NCBI GenBank assembly: GCA_021818955.1
Contig: JAKASR010000002.1
Coordinates: forward strand, 171,659-235,658
From: Acidobacteriota bacterium
GTDB lineage: Bacteria; Acidobacteriota; Terriglobia; Terriglobales; SCQP01
Length of the DNA: 64,000 bases
Reading direction: 5' to 3'
The notes beneath the pieces were generated by a model that did not search any database, had not been told where the DNA came from, and saw only the letters and a list, made by a program, of their open reading frames with translations. The position numbers and the translations under genes are program-made. Shown here one piece after another: positions 55,221 to 62,852 of this stretch. The first letter of the stretch is position 1, and each line of letters starts with the position of its first letter.

Positions 55221-55451
55221 ATGAGCGAGGGAAGAGCAGACCTGCACGCGCGCCGCCCGATGGAGCACGAGATGAACGCGAGCGGAGACCCGGGCGAGCT
55301 CGATGCCGCGCGCCGGGTGATGCCCGCCATCAAGCCGCATGCGCGCCAGGCAGAACACATTGACCACGCGCACCAGGGCGACGGCCAGGCGGACGCCGGG
55401 CCAAGGCAGGGCCGGCGCAACCGCGGCACCCAGGGCGGAGGCGAGCAGTGA
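55221..55451 (+). CDS. Possible small His-rich protein coupled to oxidase subunit I
   Basis: 76-residue frame from ATG 55221 whose TGA overlaps the GTG start of the oxidase gene (GTGA), as seen between other genes of this operon. It is hydrophilic and rich in His, Arg, Gly and Gln (QAEHIDHAHQGDGQADAGP), with no membrane segment and no family match. The opposite strand is open over the same stretch and equally unconvincing. If not translated, this is a 398-bp leader between the pterin dehydratase and oxidase genes without another visible gene; no clear promoter was found in it. Confidence 0.35.
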   Translation: MSEGRADLHARRPMEHEMNASGDPGELDAARRVMPAIKPHARQAEHIDHAHQGDGQADAGPRQGRRNRGTQGGGEQ

Positions 55452-57325
55452 GCACCGCGGCGATTGAAGCGCGCTTGACCCGGCTTTGGGAGACCCCCAA
55501 AACACTGCTCGGGTTTGTGGGCACGGTGGACCATAAAACCCTGGGCAAACGCTATATCATCACCGCGCTGGCGTTCATGATCATCGGCGGCCTTGAAGCC
55601 TTGATCCTGCGGGTGCAACTGGCGCACGCCAACAACTCGCTGCTGTTGCCCGAACATTACGACCAGATTTTCAGCATGCACGGCTCGCTGATGATTTTCT
55701 GGTATGCCTCGCCCATACTTTCGGGTTTCGCCGTTTACCTGGTGCCGCTGATGTGCGGCGCGCGCGATCTGGCGTTTCCGCGGCTGAACGCTTTCACGTA
55801 TTACACCTTTCTTTTTTCCGGAATTCTGGTCTACAGCAGCTCCATGTGGGAGCAGGGACCGAATGCCGGCTGGTTTTCGTATGTGCCGTACACCACCCAG
55901 CACTACTCGCCCCACATGGGGATGGACTTCTGGAATGTCGCGCTGCTGTTGCTGACCATCTCCACCATCGGCGCGGCGATCAACTTCATTGTCACCATCC
56001 TGCGGCATCGCGCTCCCGGCATGACGGTCGGCCGCATGCCGCTATTTCTGTACAGCACCCTGACCGCCTCGTTCGTTTCGCTCTTCGGGTTGCCGGCACT
56101 GACCGTGGCCAACATCGAGCTGGAGCTGGAGCGACGCTGGCATTTCCGTTTTTTTGATGTCGCGCATGGCGGCAAAGCGCTGCTGTGGCAGAACACCTTC
56201 TGGTTTTTCGGCCATCCCTGGGTCTACATAGTCTTCCTGCCCGCGACCGGCATGATCTCGATGATGCTGCCGGTATTCTCCCGCCGGCCAATCGTGGGCT
56301 ACTACTACATCGCCGCCTCGACGGTGCTGACCGGACTGACCGGCTTTGGGGTGTGGTGGCATCACATGTTCATCACGGGCGTCAATCAACTGGCAATGAG
56401 TTTTTTCAGCGCCGCCAGCATGACCATTTCGCTGTTCACCGCGGTGCAGGTCATCGCCTGGATCGTGACCATCTGGAAAGGCCGCCCGGTGATGACCACG
56501 GCCATGTATTTCGCGGTGGCTTTCATCGCGTTAATCGTGATAGGCGGGCTGGATGGGGTGATTACCGCGGTGGTGCCGGTGGATTGGCAATTGAATGACA
56601 CCTATTGGGTGGTTGCCCACATTCATTACGTACTGGTCGGGGCAAACCTGTTCCCGGTTTTTGCGGCGATCTATTACTGGTATCCCAAGATGTCGGGCCG
56701 CATGCTGAACGAAACGCTGGGCAAGGTCAGCTTCTGGCTGATGATTGTCGGCTTCAATCTGGCTTTCTTCACCATGCACATCCTGGGGGTCGAAGGCATG
56801 CCGCGGCGCATTTACACCTACGTGAGCGGGCTGGGGTTCAGCCATTTGAACCTGGTCATCAGCATCGGCGCCTTCATTCTGGCCTTTGGCATCCTGCTGA
56901 CGTTGATCAATGCGATCGTGAGCTTGAGAATCGGAGCGTATGCCGGAAAAAATCCCTGGCAAGCGGATTCGCTGGAGTGGTCCACCGAGTCGCCGCCGCC
57001 GCCGTACGGCAGCGTGCATCTGCCCACGGTGACCACCCGGCATCCCCTCTGGGACGAGCACGACGAGGAGGAAGATCCCGAAGGGGAGCGGATTCTGGAC
57101 CAGGGCCGCTGCACTTTCTCCACCACCTGGATCGACGCCAAGCCCTTCGCGCTGGCGCGCATGCCCAACGACAGCATTTTGCCGGCGGGGGCGGCGTTCT
57201 GGTTGGTAATTGCCGGCTATGCGTTTGTGTTTTCGCATGATTGGTACTTTCTCTTCTTCATGCTGCTGGCCGGGGCGACGGTCGCCGCCTGGCTGGGCAC
57301 ACCGGCGGAAAGGGAGCTTCCATGA
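55448..57325 (+). CDS. ctaD: Haem-copper oxidase subunit I (divergent aa3/caa3-type)
   Basis: Catalytic subunit reducing O2, 625 residues, GTG start. All metal ligands are present: H78 (haem a, in SMHGSLMIFW), H256 and Y260 (CuB His and cross-linked Tyr, GHPWVY), H305-H306 (CuB), H391 and H393 (haems, VVAHIHYVL). However the D-channel Glu in GHPEVY is Trp258, the K-channel Lys position is Gln334 (LFTAVQVIAW), and the usual Asn after GGFG is Val97; Asp107 and Asn114 at the channel mouth remain. About 12 TM segments and a C-terminal acidic loop (DEHDEEEDPEGE) plus two more TMs. ATGA overlap with subunit III. Confidence 0.92.
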   Translation: MSTAAIEARLTRLWETPKTLLGFVGTVDHKTLGKRYIITALAFMIIGGLEALILRVQLAHANNSLLLPEHYDQIFSMHGSLMIFWYASPILSGFAVYLVPLMCGARDLAFPRLNAFTYYTFLFSGILVYSSSMWEQGPNAGWFSYVPYTTQHYSPHMGMDFWNVALLLLTISTIGAAINFIVTILRHRAPGMTVGRMPLFLYSTLTASFVSLFGLPALTVANIELELERRWHFRFFDVAHGGKALLWQNTFWFFGHPWVYIVFLPATGMISMMLPVFSRRPIVGYYYIAASTVLTGLTGFGVWWHHMFITGVNQLAMSFFSAASMTISLFTAVQVIAWIVTIWKGRPVMTTAMYFAVAFIALIVIGGLDGVITAVVPVDWQLNDTYWVVAHIHYVLVGANLFPVFAAIYYWYPKMSGRMLNETLGKVSFWLMIVGFNLAFFTMHILGVEGMPRRIYTYVSGLGFSHLNLVISIGAFILAFGILLTLINAIVSLRIGAYAGKNPWQADSLEWSTESPPPPYGSVHLPTVTTRHPLWDEHDEEEDPEGERILDQGRCTFSTTWIDAKPFALARMPNDSILPAGAAFWLVIAGYAFVFSHDWYFLFFMLLAGATVAAWLGTPAERELP

Positions 57326-57915
57326 GTTCGCCCACGCTTTCGCGCGAGCCTCCCGAGCACCGGCCCTTGGTCGAGGTGCTGGACGAGCGCCGGGGCACTT
57401 TCGGCATGTCGCTTTTCATCACCAGCGAGGCCATGCTGTTCGCGCTGCTGTTCGGCGCCTATTTTTTCCTCGGCGCGGGCCCGCGCCGCTGGAAAGTGGA
57501 CGAGCCGCCGAAGCTGCATTTCGCGCTGCCTATGCTCGCCCTCCTGGTGCTCAGCAGCATAGTCCTGCATTGGGGCGACGAGCAGGCCAATAAAGAACGC
57601 TATGTGCCCGCGCGGCTGGCGCTGATCGCGACCATGCTGCTGGGGCTGCTCTTCATCGTGCTCAGCTATTTCGATTTTCACGAAGAGTTACGCTCGCTGA
57701 CACCGCGCACCGATGCCTATGGCTCAATCTTTTACACCATCCTCGGCACGCACCTTACACACCTTAGCGTGGGCCTGCTGATGATGCTTTGGGTCTTGCC
57801 GCAATTGCGCCCCGGCAAGGCCTACCACAACGTTTCGTTGTATTGGCATTTTGTGGATTCGGTGTGGGTGGCGATCGTGGTAGTGCTGTTCATCCTGCCC
57901 CACTTTGGCCTATGA
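57322..57915 (+). CDS. ctaE: Cytochrome c oxidase subunit III
   Basis: Integral membrane subunit without redox centres, 197 residues from the ATG at 57322. Five to six TM helices. FGMSLFITSEAMLFALLFGAYFF contains the conserved Glu of TM3-equivalent, THLTHLSVGLLMMLWVL the conserved His and WHFVDSVWVAIVVVLFIL the C-terminal signature. Both ends overlap their neighbours (ATGA), so subunits I, III and the next membrane protein are translated together. Confidence 0.92.
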   Translation: MSSPTLSREPPEHRPLVEVLDERRGTFGMSLFITSEAMLFALLFGAYFFLGAGPRRWKVDEPPKLHFALPMLALLVLSSIVLHWGDEQANKERYVPARLALIATMLLGLLFIVLSYFDFHEELRSLTPRTDAYGSIFYTILGTHLTHLSVGLLMMLWVLPQLRPGKAYHNVSLYWHFVDSVWVAIVVVLFILPHFGL

Positions 57916-58331
57916 GTTTGCGACGTCAAAGCGAGACCGGACCGGAAACCCCTTCGCGGGCGCTGTTTTTTGGGGTGGCCGGCGCCGCCGCCGCCTGGGT
58001 GATCGCGTTATTTGTGAATGTGGTGGTCTCCGGCCCGGGCTGCTCGCGAGCGGTCACCGCCTATCTGGCGGTGACGCCACTCTGGATGCGAATCGTGCTG
58101 GGCGCCGTGACGGGATTTTTGCTCGCGGTCGCAATCGCGGCCGGCCTGGTCTGCTATCGCGTCTGGCGGCGGTTGACCTCAAACCAGGCGAGCCTGGTCG
58201 AGGCGGAGGGCCACAGCCGCCAGGAATATGTCGCGCTTTTCGGCCTGTTCGTCAGCATCTCGCTGGGCTTAGGGCTGGTTTGGTTTGTCCTGCCCATCTA
58301 CATCATTCGCATATGCACAAGAGCCCACTAA
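57912..58331 (+). CDS. Small membrane protein of the oxidase operon (subunit IV position)
   Basis: 139 residues, ATG 57912. Three likely membrane helices (about 18-36, 52-75, 108-130). It has no similarity I can name, but its place after subunit III is that of the small subunit IV or an assembly factor. It overlaps the subunit III stop by 4 bp and the following cytochrome start by 1 bp. The fragment SGPGCSRAVTAYL lies between the first two helices on the probable periplasmic side. Confidence 0.72.
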   Translation: MSLRRQSETGPETPSRALFFGVAGAAAAWVIALFVNVVVSGPGCSRAVTAYLAVTPLWMRIVLGAVTGFLLAVAIAAGLVCYRVWRRLTSNQASLVEAEGHSRQEYVALFGLFVSISLGLGLVWFVLPIYIIRICTRAH

Positions 58332-58723
58332 TGCGCGCGCGGCGCGCCCTCTCGATGACCGGGTGGTCTCTGACCCTGTTCGCGGCGTTGCTCAGCGCCG
58401 GCTGCATGCGCGAGCGCACCAAGCGGGCAGTCGCCAACCTGGGCGGGAACTGGAGGCGCGGGAGGCAGGTGATCGAACAATATCATTGCGGCGCCTGTCA
58501 TGAGATTCCCGGCGTGCCGCATGCGTGGGGCCTGGTGGGCTCGCCGCTTGAAAAATTTGGCCGGCGGACGATGATTGCCGGCGTATTGCCCAATACCCCG
58601 GCCAATCTCGAGCGCTGGCTGCGTTCGCCGAAAGCGGTCGATCCCTTAACCGCCATGCCCGACCTGGGCCTGAACCGGCAGCAGCGGCACGATGTGACGG
58701 CCTATCTCTATACCCTGCGATGA
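58331..58723 (+). CDS. Membrane-attached c-type cytochrome, monohaem
   Basis: 130 residues from ATG 58331 (a Met six codons upstream is in frame). N-terminal hydrophobic segment ending LLSAGCMRER, a probable lipoprotein signal although the -3 residue is Ser. Haem attachment CGACH in EQYHCGACHEIPGVPHAWG; axial Met likely in AMPDLGLNRQQRHDVTAYL. Class I fold of minimal size. It lies directly before the XoxF gene and could carry electrons from the dehydrogenase to the oxidase. Confidence 0.85.
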   Translation: MRARRALSMTGWSLTLFAALLSAGCMRERTKRAVANLGGNWRRGRQVIEQYHCGACHEIPGVPHAWGLVGSPLEKFGRRTMIAGVLPNTPANLERWLRSPKAVDPLTAMPDLGLNRQQRHDVTAYLYTLR

Positions 58724-58729
58724 GGAGGC

Positions 58730-60589
58730 ATGATGATGTGGCGTAGTTTGCGATGGAGCTGGCTGATGGCAGCGAGCCTGACCGGCATATTCGCCTGGCA
58801 CGCCCTGGCGGCGCGGCATCAATCTCCACCCGCCTCCCGCGCCGGTTTGATGCAGGTGCCGGGCCAGCAGGCGGATATTCATCTGGTCAGTCCGGTACCC
58901 AACGGTAATTGGACCCTGCCAAATGGCGATTTCGCCACTACGCGCTATAGCCCGCTTGATCAGATCAATTCTACGAATGTGAAAAACCTGAAGGTGGTCA
59001 CCACCTTTTCCGACGGGATTCCCCATGGGCATGAAGGCGGTCCGCTGGTTGTCAATAACACGCTTTACATGGTGACTCCGTTTCCCAACGATCTCATCGC
59101 GCTCGATCTGACCAAGCCCGGCTTTCCGATGAAATGGAAATTCGACCCGCACCCCAACCCCATTGCCCAAGGCGAAGCCTGCTGCGACACAGTTAACCGC
59201 GGCGCCAGCTATTCCCAGGGCAAGGTGGTGTACGCCACCCTCGACGATCATGTAGTGGCCGTCGACGCGCAGACCGGGAACGCGGTTTGGGACACCAAAG
59301 TGGGCAACGTGCACGCCGGCGAAACTATCACCATGGCGCCGCTGATCGTGCATGGCGTGGTCATTGCCGGCGACAGCGGCGGGGAGATAGGGGTACGCGG
59401 CAGAGTGACCGGGCTGGATTTGAACAACGGCAAAATCCTTTGGCGCGCGTTTAGTACGGGCTCGGATCAGGACGTGCGCCTCGGCAGCGGCTTTCATCCC
59501 TATTACGCCAAGGACCGCGGCAAGAATCTGGGGATCGCATCGTGGCCGGCCGGCGCCTGGAAACACGGCGGCGGCACGGTCTGGGGATGGATTTCCTACG
59601 ATCCGGAAACCAACCTGATCTTTTACGGCAGCGGCAATCCCGGCCCGTGGAACGAAGACCAGCGGCCGGGCAGCAATCACTGGACCTGCACCATCTGGGC
59701 CCGCGATCCGCAATCTGGTTATGCCAAGTGGGCTTACCAGATCGATCCCCACGATGCCTGGGACTACGACGCGGTCATGGAAAACATCGCCCTAGACATG
59801 AACTGGCAGGGACACATGCGCCGGCTGCTGATCCATCCCGGCCGGAATGGCTTCGTGATGGTGCTCGACCGCAACACCGGGCAACTGCTTTCGGCCAAAA
59901 AGTATTTGCCGGATGTCAATTGGGCGCGCGGCTACAATCTGATCACCGGCCTGCCGGAAGTGAATCCGGCCGCCATCGCCCATACCGCCGCATATGCCAT
60001 GCACATTTGCCCCTCCTCGACCGGGGCCAAAGATTTCACCCCTTCGTCTTTTTCACCGCAGACAGGTTTGCTCTATATCCCCGCTCATAACACCTGCATG
60101 GACCGCAAAGAGTCCCAGGCCAACTACATTGAAGGCACGCCCTATCTCGGTTCCAGCAACAACATGTACCCCGGCCCGGGCGGTTATCAAGGCGAGTTGA
60201 TCGCCTGGAACCTGCAGCAGGGGAAAAAAGTCTGGGGCATTAAGGATGCCGTTCTGCCGGTGTATTGCGGCGTCCTCAGCACCGGCGGCGGCTTGGTGTT
60301 TTACGGCACGATGGAGGGCTGGTTCCGCGCCGTCGATGCGCGCACCGGAAAAGTGCTTTGGCAATTCCATACCGGGTCGGGAATTATCGGCGACCCGATG
60401 ACGTTTCTCGGGCCGCATGGCAAACAATATGTCGCCATTTATTCCGGCATCGGCGGCTGGATGGGCGCTTTTGCCCAGCCGAGTATGTCGCTGGACGATC
60501 CTTATGCCGGGTTGGGCGCGGCCGGAGCGATGAAATCGATCAAGAAATACAGCGCGCCGGGCGACACGCTGTATATCTTTTCGCTGTAG
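58730..60589 (+). CDS. xoxF: Lanthanide-type PQQ-dependent alcohol (methanol) dehydrogenase, XoxF-like
   Basis: Periplasmic eight-bladed quinoprotein, 619 residues (AGGAGG at 58723-58728 is better spaced for the third ATG, 58736). N-terminal hydrophobic signal about 8-27. Adjacent cysteines C151-C152 (EACCDTVNRGASY) form the disulfide next to PQQ. Metal ligands: E219 (GGEIGVRGRV), N303 (GSGNPGPWN), catalytic D345 and the extra D347 of WDYDAV; the second Asp marks rare-earth-dependent enzymes, where calcium types have Ala or Ser/Thr. The C-terminal YPGPGGYQGELIAWN, FYGTMEGWFRAVDA and the end GDTLYIFSL are XoxF-like. Oxidises methanol or other short alcohols; electrons probably go to the neighbouring cytochromes. 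Confidence 0.83.
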   Translation: MMMWRSLRWSWLMAASLTGIFAWHALAARHQSPPASRAGLMQVPGQQADIHLVSPVPNGNWTLPNGDFATTRYSPLDQINSTNVKNLKVVTTFSDGIPHGHEGGPLVVNNTLYMVTPFPNDLIALDLTKPGFPMKWKFDPHPNPIAQGEACCDTVNRGASYSQGKVVYATLDDHVVAVDAQTGNAVWDTKVGNVHAGETITMAPLIVHGVVIAGDSGGEIGVRGRVTGLDLNNGKILWRAFSTGSDQDVRLGSGFHPYYAKDRGKNLGIASWPAGAWKHGGGTVWGWISYDPETNLIFYGSGNPGPWNEDQRPGSNHWTCTIWARDPQSGYAKWAYQIDPHDAWDYDAVMENIALDMNWQGHMRRLLIHPGRNGFVMVLDRNTGQLLSAKKYLPDVNWARGYNLITGLPEVNPAAIAHTAAYAMHICPSSTGAKDFTPSSFSPQTGLLYIPAHNTCMDRKESQANYIEGTPYLGSSNNMYPGPGGYQGELIAWNLQQGKKVWGIKDAVLPVYCGVLSTGGGLVFYGTMEGWFRAVDARTGKVLWQFHTGSGIIGDPMTFLGPHGKQYVAIYSGIGGWMGAFAQPSMSLDDPYAGLGAAGAMKSIKKYSAPGDTLYIFSL

Positions 60590-60618
60590 CCGGAAGGGAG
60601 TAGCGAGGCAGGCGAATT

Positions 60619-61155
60619 ATGGAAAAGCAATCAGCTGCGTACCGAGCGGCAAGCCCGCGGCACACCGCAGGGAGGCGCTGGTGCGGCTGGGCGCTGGCGG
60701 GGCTGGCGCTGTTAGCCATCGGCTGCCATTACCGCCGGCACGAATCGGCGCCGCTGGATTCTCCGCCCGACGTGCGAATTCCGGTTGGGCCGATTCCCGG
60801 GCCGAAAACCCAAATTCGGCTGCCCATGAATCCTTATCAAAACAATAAGGAAGCGCTCATGGAAGGCCGCCAAATGTTCGTGGAGTTTAACTGCGCCGGC
60901 TGTCATGGCGGACATGGCGGCGGCGGCATGGGTCCCAGCCTGAGAGATCGCAAGTGGCTGTACGGCAGCTCCGACGCCCATATTTTCTCCTCGATCGCCG
61001 AGGGCCGGGGCAAAGGCATGCCAGCCTGGGGCACGCGCCTTTCCGCGGACCAGATCTGGAAGATCGTGGCCTATATCAAATCCCTGCGCACGCCCGAGGA
61101 ACCGGACCCGCCGCTAGTTCCGCCCCATCCCATCGTGCCGAAGAAGGCGCCCTAG
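60619..61155 (+). CDS. c-type cytochrome, probable electron acceptor of the XoxF-like enzyme
   Basis: 178 residues. A basic N-terminus and hydrophobic segment ending LALLAIGCHYRR suggest a lipoprotein (Cys after Ala-Ile-Gly). A Pro-rich linker precedes the haem domain: CAGCH in FNCAGCHGGHGGGGMGP, axial Met likely in GKGMPAWGTRLSADQIW. The C-terminus is Pro-rich (PEEPDPPLVPPHP). Downstream of the dehydrogenase by 29 bp, the place where XoxG-type cytochromes usually occur, though it is not clearly a XoxG. Electron flow is inferred. Confidence 0.85.
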   Translation: MEKQSAAYRAASPRHTAGRRWCGWALAGLALLAIGCHYRRHESAPLDSPPDVRIPVGPIPGPKTQIRLPMNPYQNNKEALMEGRQMFVEFNCAGCHGGHGGGGMGPSLRDRKWLYGSSDAHIFSSIAEGRGKGMPAWGTRLSADQIWKIVAYIKSLRTPEEPDPPLVPPHPIVPKKAP

Positions 61156-61165
61156 CGAGAGACTT

Positions 61166-62179
61166 ATGCCGCGCCGCCTGATCATATTGCTCGCCGCGCT
61201 ATTGCCGCTGGCCGCCTGCCATGGGCCGCAGAGCATGTTCAATACTGCCGGCCCCGCCGCGCAAAAGCTATCTTCACTGGCGATCTTCATCCTGACGATA
61301 TTTTGCGTCTCCGCCGGCATAACCATTTTTCTACTGCTCTGGGGCGTGTTTCGCCAGCGCGGCAGCTTGGAAGAACATGCTCCCTGGAATGCCGGTGGCG
61401 GCCAAAACTGGGTATTGTACGGCGGGCTGGTGGCGCCCGGCCTCATCCTTTTCGTGGTTTTTATCTTCTCTCTGGTGAAAACCACCGATTTTCCCTTACG
61501 TGACCACGGGAAAGCCATGCACCCCACCATTCTCGTCATCGGCCATCAATGGTGGTGGGAGGTGCGCTATATCGGCGGTCCACCCGATCGCCAGTTCACG
61601 ACCGCCAACGAGATTCATATTCCGGTCGGGCTGCCGGTGGATATTCAGGTGCAGAGCTCGGATGTGATTCATGCCTTCTGGGTTCCGGCGCTACACGGCA
61701 AGATCCAGATGATTCCCGGGCTGACCAATTACATTCGCATCGTGGCCAGCCGCCCGGGAAATTATCAAGGCGAGTGCACCGTCTATTGCGGCGTACAGCA
61801 TGCTCATATGCGCTTGCTGGTTGTGGCCCAGCCGCAGACCAGCTATCGCGACTGGCGCCGGGCGCAACTGAAGGACGCCAGCTTGCCTGCCGGTTCCGCA
61901 GCACAACAAGGCGAACAGGTATTTATGCGCGCCGCCTGCCCCCTCTGCCATACCGTGCGGGGCTTGGGCGACGTCAATGGCACGGTAGGTCCCGATCTGA
62001 CCCATCTGGCCAGCCGCCAGTACATCGGTGCGAACAGCTTTCCCAACGACAAGGCCGACCTGGAATCCTGGGTTTCTCAGGCGCAAACCTTGAAGCCGGG
62101 TTGCGAAATGCCCGATTTAAACGCGTTCAGCGGCTCTGAATTGCGCGATTTGACCACATTTTTGCGTGAATTGAAATGA
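61166..62179 (+). CDS. coxB: Cytochrome c oxidase subunit II with fused cytochrome c domain (caa3 type)
   Basis: Electron-entry subunit, 337 residues. Lipobox LAAC at 15-18, then two TM helices (about 36-60, 83-105). Trp-rich electron-transfer segment GHQWWWEVRY. CuA ligands H169 (VIHAFWVPALHG), C204, C208, H212 and M215 (ECTVYCGVQHAHM). The residue between the two cysteines that is normally Glu (C-x-E-x-C) is Val206. The C-terminal haem-c domain has CPLCH at 258-262 and Met315 in GCEMPDL. Position at the end of the operon, after the dehydrogenase and cytochromes, is unusual: subunit II normally precedes subunit I. Confidence 0.93.
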   Translation: MPRRLIILLAALLPLAACHGPQSMFNTAGPAAQKLSSLAIFILTIFCVSAGITIFLLLWGVFRQRGSLEEHAPWNAGGGQNWVLYGGLVAPGLILFVVFIFSLVKTTDFPLRDHGKAMHPTILVIGHQWWWEVRYIGGPPDRQFTTANEIHIPVGLPVDIQVQSSDVIHAFWVPALHGKIQMIPGLTNYIRIVASRPGNYQGECTVYCGVQHAHMRLLVVAQPQTSYRDWRRAQLKDASLPAGSAAQQGEQVFMRAACPLCHTVRGLGDVNGTVGPDLTHLASRQYIGANSFPNDKADLESWVSQAQTLKPGCEMPDLNAFSGSELRDLTTFLRELK

Positions 62180-62534
62180 GGCGGGCAGTAGATCGGGATA
62201 ATTATTGTCTTTGGAGACGGATGATCAACTACAGCTGCAGAATTTAAATAACTGTAGGGTTTGGGCTGAGTGGCAAGACTGCATGCGCCGACTCGAGTCT
62301 TCTTTAATTAAATTAGTAGTATGTATTTGGCTTTTCCCTGGCGCATCGGAGGGGGCGTGCACGTGTCAAGGAATGCGACAGCCGGAATGCAACCCCTTTT
62401 CCGGGTTGCAGTTCGTAACAAGCATGTCCTTGGCGGCGAAGCTTTCGCGGGCGCACGACCCACCGAGCCGCCAATACCGGTGTGGTAAAGCCGCAATATA
62501 CATATGACCGGGACAAGATCCGCGATGTCATGGG
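62180..62534. other. Intergenic region after the respiratory operon
   Basis: 355 bp with no gene I can support. It contains an AT-rich stretch near 62300-62330 and the hairpin at 62388-62410. Several short frames exist but none resembles a protein. It leads into a LarA-like remnant, so part of it may be decayed coding sequence. Confidence 0.4.
62388..62410. terminator. Hairpin downstream of the oxidase/XoxF operon
   Basis: Perfect 8-bp stem TGCAACCC-CTTTTCC-GGGTTGCA, 209 bp after the subunit II stop. No T-run follows on either strand, so terminator function is only possible. Confidence 0.35.
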
Positions 62535-62852
62535 AGCGGCGGTGACACCACGCAGGCGCTCGATCAAGCCGATATCATTTTGGTTTCCACCGGCATCCGG
62601 CCGGGCGAGGCACGGCAGTTGGGTTTGCGGCCAGCGAGCACGGTGCAAGAAGCCCTGGAAATGGCCTTTTTGCGACAGGGATCCAAGGCCCAGGTAACCG
62701 TCTTACGCACCGGGGGCGGGCTGTTGCTTCGGGTTGCCGGCGAAGCCGCCGGACAACGTCCGGCCGCAGCCGGACTCCCCGATGTGGAAACAGTTGCAGT
62801 AAAACTGGACAAGTTTTCGGTCATGCGTTGCCTTGCGGCACGGCAACGGTAG
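62535..62852 (+). pseudogene. C-terminal remnant of a LarA/DUF2088-type (nickel-dependent lactate racemase-like) gene
   Basis: The frame reads GGDTTQALDQADIILVSTGI and continues EARQLGLRPASTVQEALEMA, then QVTVLRTGGGLLLRV, the arrangement seen at the C-terminus of LarA-type proteins (aldehyde-like ILVS, LGL-PA-S-EEAL, V-VLP-GG). The normal N-terminal 300 or so residues are absent and the frame is blocked by TGA at 62505. A different frame just upstream (about 62482-62535, QYTYDRDKIRDVMGAA) may be the preceding part after a frameshift. I read it as a decayed gene; the first in-frame start (TTG 62580) would give only a 90-residue fragment. Confidence 0.45.

Follow-up and report, generated by a model that had tools for sequence, protein, structure and literature searches.

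A xoxF gene inside a terminal oxidase operon of an acidobacterium, and the unusual proton-channel residues of the oxidase

We found a gene for a XoxF-type alcohol dehydrogenase lying among the genes of a terminal oxidase in a 64,000-nucleotide stretch of DNA from a soil Acidobacteriota bacterium (contig JAKASR010000002.1 of assembly GCA_021818955.1; hereafter the window). Seven consecutive genes, all on the plus strand between 55448 and 62179, follow one another in the order coxA, coxC, small membrane protein, cytochrome c, xoxF, cytochrome c and coxB with its haem c. Taken as a whole, the explanation that we favour and regard as fairly probable is that these genes would encode a dedicated chain leading from an alcohol through XoxF and cytochrome c to an oxidase and O2, that this chain moved as a unit, that its oxidase has lost channel residues and that its PQQ comes from outside the cell. 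A dedicated alcohol-to-O2 chain had been proposed from the letters alone (the sequence-only reading), and it stands as the best reading because xoxF lies within the oxidase operon, the phylogenies of the two co-vary and the arrangement recurs across phyla. The ligands of XoxF and the A-type nature of the oxidase operon also speak for it, but the coupling itself is not new. As to the path of the electrons, the substrate, the use of a lanthanide and the state of proton pumping, what we say here is what we infer. The genes, and the remnant that follows them, are listed below.

55448..57325, plus strand: coxA, haem-copper oxidase subunit I with an A-type fold (625 aa, GTG start; PF00115, 464 bits)
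57322..57915, plus strand: coxC, oxidase subunit III (197 aa; PF00510, 46 bits)
57912..58331, plus strand: small membrane protein (alignment of 23 members, structure model)
58331..58723, plus strand: mono-haem cytochrome c with a CGACH motif (PF00034, 24 bits)
58730..60589, plus strand: xoxF, lanthanide-type PQQ methanol/alcohol dehydrogenase (TIGR03075, 592 bits against a cut-off of 480)
60619..61155, plus strand: cytochrome c in the xoxG position, with a CAGCH motif (PF13442, CBB3-III-like, 64 bits)
61166..62179, plus strand: coxB, oxidase subunit II with CuA and a C-terminal haem c (PF00116, 60 bits; PF00034, 33 bits)
62510..62801, plus strand: remnant of a larA-type gene, 3' end (PF21113, 25.3 bits)

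The seven genes are separated, in order, by -4, -4, -1, +6, +29 and +10 nt. Annotation and family matches agree with the sequence-only reading on the seven genes, their order, the single strand and the overlaps. They do not agree with its start of the operon at 55221, which we correct to the GTG at 55448. An ORF at 55221-55451 (76 aa) was considered as a first gene and rejected, since it has no Pfam match and since in a relative (L039) a gene on the opposite strand lies directly upstream of coxA. A scan of the window against Rfam gave no match, and a scan for promoters and terminators found none at the start of the operon, the promoter-like sites being within the range of shuffles.

The dehydrogenase has the four lanthanide ligands of its family. 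These are E219, N303, D345 and D347, the last being the extra Asp, and by residue mapping they correspond to E172, N256, D299 and D301 of the XoxF of strain SolV. All four are kept in every XoxF of a 77-row alignment, and the last position is Ala in MxaF. The enzyme also has the adjacent cysteines Cys151-Cys152. It groups with XoxF and not with MxaF, both in a tree with MxaF as outgroup and by its TIGR03075 score over the cut-off. With all ligands present and the profile match above cut-off, its assignment to the lanthanide-type XoxF with D-x-D stands, and we infer that it would depend on a lanthanide. In a search of the PDB the closest solved structure is 4mae (589 bits), the XoxF2 of Methylacidiphilum fumariolicum SolV, which is about half identical to the window's enzyme and has all the lanthanide ligands in common with it; in our tree it is placed outside the oxidase-linked XoxF clade. 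Another top match is 6oc5, which we take to be the XoxF of Methylorubrum extorquens, and enzymes of the ethanol-dehydrogenase type score far lower. In another genome (G405) a tandem pair of xoxF genes adjoins one linked oxidase (locus L178, 11469-14995).

The sequence-only reading had presented the coupling to a specific oxidase as its new inference. A paper of 2024 (Voutsinos, PMC10875860) already describes acidobacterial xoxF3 clusters that comprise CoxI-III, CtaG, CytC, XoxG and XoxJ, so that coupling, as gene content, was known. That paper places xoxF3 clusters in Acidobacteria, Gemmatimonadetes and Verrucomicrobia, refers to an earlier review according to which a few xoxF3 operons contain cox and ctaG, and describes XoxF3 systems as without experimental study as of 2024. 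The window has in common with the clusters described there CoxI, CoxII, CoxIII, CytC, XoxG (by position) and a protein of 110-130 aa. It differs from them in that its blocks are swapped, in that xoxJ is missing from operon and genome, in that the operon has no ctaG and the genome no match to CtaG, and in that its CoxA has a Trp for the D-channel Glu. The passages of the paper considered here do not discuss the sequence of the oxidase. Within the papers open to search, and as far as we searched, the swapped layout, the co-phylogeny across phyla and the loss of channel residues are new.

Two layouts are found among the relatives. Layout A is xoxF-xoxJ-xoxG-coxB-coxA-coxC-small protein-ctaG-cytochrome c, and its loci match the gene content of the clusters in PMC10875860. 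Layout B is coxA-coxC-small protein-cytochrome c-xoxF-(xoxJ)-xoxG-coxB. B is therefore A with two blocks exchanged and ctaG lost, and the window is B without xoxJ. Carriers of layout B include Azohydromonas australica and metagenome-assembled genomes (MAGs) of Vicinamibacterales, Acidobacteriaceae, Methylophaga and Gemmatimonas; it spans Acidobacteriota, Pseudomonadota and Gemmatimonadota. Layout A is also present in Ramlibacter ginsenosidimutans and in a Gemmatimonadetes MAG. Among 150 genomes of the order, cox genes adjoin 17 of the 18 XoxF loci of the window's kind, the exception being a partial XoxF. In a phylum-wide draw of 396 genomes, a linked coxA lies within about 6 kb in 10 of 11 genomes with a XoxF of this clade, four of the 11 also belonging to the order set. 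The linkage thus goes beyond what chance would give.

Oxidase operons regularly lacking xoxF, with xoxF elsewhere, had been named in advance as an observation against the coupling. Such cases exist, but we found them only rarely. One genome (G111) has a B oxidase operon without xoxF and xoxG, its cytochrome c gene joined directly to coxB; since its CoxA nests within the B clade, the absence would most simply be a loss. Another (G300) retains an A-type oxidase and a xoxG-like gene, with xoxF missing. In a third (G323) xoxF-xoxJ-xoxG and the oxidase are on separate contigs, and locus L077 and three alphaproteobacterial loci have a xoxF of this clade without cox.

The trees of dehydrogenase and oxidase agree closely. 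The XoxF of layouts A and B form one fully supported clade, which also takes in a small number of loci that are unlinked or truncated, in a tree that contained no named XoxF3 reference. The linked CoxA separated from 15 unlinked CoxA with a branch support of 99%. The distance matrices of the XoxF and CoxA trees correlate closely (r = 0.90 over 25 loci), a value reached in none of 5000 within-layout shuffles, so that the co-evolution of XoxF and subunit I that had been suggested as a check is borne out. Such co-phylogeny is evidence of co-inheritance. Electron transfer does not follow from it alone, since matching trees are expected for any genes travelling as a block. Judging from these sequences, the XoxF-oxidase set moves between bacteria, and across phyla, as one unit.

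A set that travels together might nevertheless deliver its electrons elsewhere. The XoxF cluster could be a transferable package whose electrons enter a general cytochrome c pool from which any oxidase accepts, in which case the linked oxidase would not be dedicated to it. The window's genome has a second coxA elsewhere, of the ordinary type, so that the oxidase of the operon is additional. This second oxidase, the oxidase operons without xoxF (G111, G300) and the xoxF without a nearby oxidase (G323, L077) speak for such a pool, as does the lack of linkage to cox genes in other XoxF clades. Yet linkage in this clade is near-constant across phyla, the co-phylogeny of XoxF and CoxA is tight, and the linked CoxA differ systematically from the unlinked ones. 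We think it unlikely that the electrons enter a general pool, and retain the dedicated chain as the preferred reading.

The cytochromes of such a chain can be assigned with some care. The cytochrome at 60619-61155 holds the position of xoxG in the relatives, where it comes after xoxJ, and matches the MoxG profile with 59 bits, below the cut-off of 148. A standard xoxG had been thought not evident. By its position and this sub-cut-off match the gene is a xoxG candidate, and its product is the likely electron acceptor of XoxF. The absence of xoxJ was, on the other hand, correctly noticed: the gene is missing from both operon and genome, and none was found with TIGR03871 in the 14 genomes searched within the window's family. 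In most relatives xoxJ lies directly 3' of xoxF; the locus of one relative (G031) likewise lacks it. In strain AB60 (L041, 10742-11602; also L075) a layout-B xoxJ appears frameshifted, and it is intact in a near relative (L040). The smaller cytochrome, at 58331-58723, is homologous to the last cytochrome of layout-A clusters, and almost every related oxidase-linked locus carries a homologue. That the cytochromes are lipoproteins, as had been supposed, is plausible but uncertain, since a pattern scan gives a clean lipobox in CoxB only. The small membrane protein at 57912-58331 has three predicted long helices and two invariant cysteines. The small proteins of the two layouts form one family in an alignment of 23 members, and the A version is the hypothetical protein of 110-130 aa. 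This two-cysteine protein is conserved in most oxidase-linked xoxF clusters; its members have no Pfam family in common, and a search with the structure model (pLDDT 76, moderate confidence) gave no significant fold match.

The most unusual part of the operon, which the sequence-only reading had passed over, is the oxidase itself. Like caa3-type cytochrome c oxidases it has a subunit II with CuA and haem c (in coxB, a motif scan gives C204-T-V-Y-C-G-V-Q-H-A-H-M for CuA and CPLCH at 258 for haem c), and its CoxA retains the ligands of haem a, haem a3 and CuB and the active-site Tyr260. Unlike them, it lacks both the K-channel Lys, replaced by Q334, and the D-channel Glu, replaced by W258, although D107 is retained; its genes, moreover, enclose a dehydrogenase and the cytochromes of the latter. 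The K-channel Lys is present in none of the 34 linked CoxA (31 Q, 1 E, 1 T and 1 A) and in all 15 unlinked ones, in alignment columns that are ungapped and consistent with solved actinobacterial oxidases. The Trp for the Glu of GHPEVY occurs in layout B and in two layout-A loci from other phyla. Elsewhere in layout A the D-channel Glu is mostly retained, but at the entry of the channel Asn, Gln, Thr or Ser usually stands in place of the Asp. A reading of CoxA as a NO-reductase was set aside, since the oxidase retains its CuA site and the active-site Tyr. The window's own genome (G000) gave no match to CtaG (PF09678) despite its two haem-copper oxidases.

In A-family oxidases every pumped proton travels through the D-channel, the K-channel running to the active-site Tyr (PMC8079940). 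The loss of the K-channel Lys and the D-channel Glu suggests that in the linked oxidase proton pumping is altered or absent, or that protons take another route. Such an enzyme probably conserves less energy, with chemical protons only and little or no pumping, unless it uses that other route. In the openly accessible literature we found no precedent for A-type oxidases without a K-channel. One might go further and speculate, as a tentative proposal that we hold possible but rather doubtful, that the XoxF-linked CoxA are a separate A-type lineage in which both canonical proton channels were abandoned. It would be a specialised sink for electrons of a lanthanide alcohol dehydrogenase, reducing O2 without pumping or by an undescribed proton route, and moving between phyla with the dehydrogenase module.

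The right edge of the operon suggests how it may have come to this lineage. In a sister species (G009), collinear on both flanks, an intact larA-type gene stands in the operon's place. The window keeps only the broken 3' end of larA (lactate racemase), at 62510-62801. Since the sister has no operon and an intact larA, this lineage probably acquired the operon through insertion into that gene.

Neither pqqC nor pqqE was found in the window's own genome, although it encodes several PQQ-domain proteins, so that PQQ must be scavenged from outside. Since the genome lacks xoxJ, pqqC, pqqE and any match to CtaG, assembly of the system might fail. The module would then be inert here, with XoxF left as an apo-enzyme for want of PQQ and the oxidase unmatured, and the absence of the insertion in the sister species is in line with this. 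But every frame is open and the enzymes retain their catalytic residues. The same gaps recur in relatives: pqqC and pqqE are both over cut-off in only 3 of the 17 XoxF-bearing genomes tested, the 14 without them including one assembled as a single contig (G095), and the locus of G031 also does without xoxJ. Furthermore, many Gram-negatives, Acidobacteria included, are documented to import PQQ that they do not synthesise (PMC12124388). An inert module thus seems to us quite improbable.

In the dedicated chain that we prefer, a periplasmic XoxF carrying PQQ, supplied from outside the cell, and a lanthanide would convert a small alcohol, methanol or another, into its aldehyde. Its electrons would pass to the cytochrome c in the xoxG position, with the second small cytochrome c perhaps serving as a relay. 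They would then reach CoxB, with its haem c and CuA, and finally haem a and the a3-CuB site of CoxA, where O2 would be reduced. Neither quinone nor the main oxidase of the organism would have a part in this chain, and the linked oxidase would act as electron sink.

XoxF3 enzymes occur in many soil bacteria. If they are hard-wired to an oxidase of their own, the supply of O2, lanthanide and scavenged PQQ, and not the general respiratory chain, would govern alcohol oxidation by these soil bacteria, and the energy gained from it may be small. For the study of proton movement in haem-copper oxidases, an oxidase clade that lacks the K-channel Lys and one end of the D-channel would likewise serve as a natural experiment. 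Both questions, that of the dedicated oxidase and that of proton movement, can be tested in the cultured carriers Azohydromonas australica DSM 1124 and Ramlibacter ginsenosidimutans KACC 17527.
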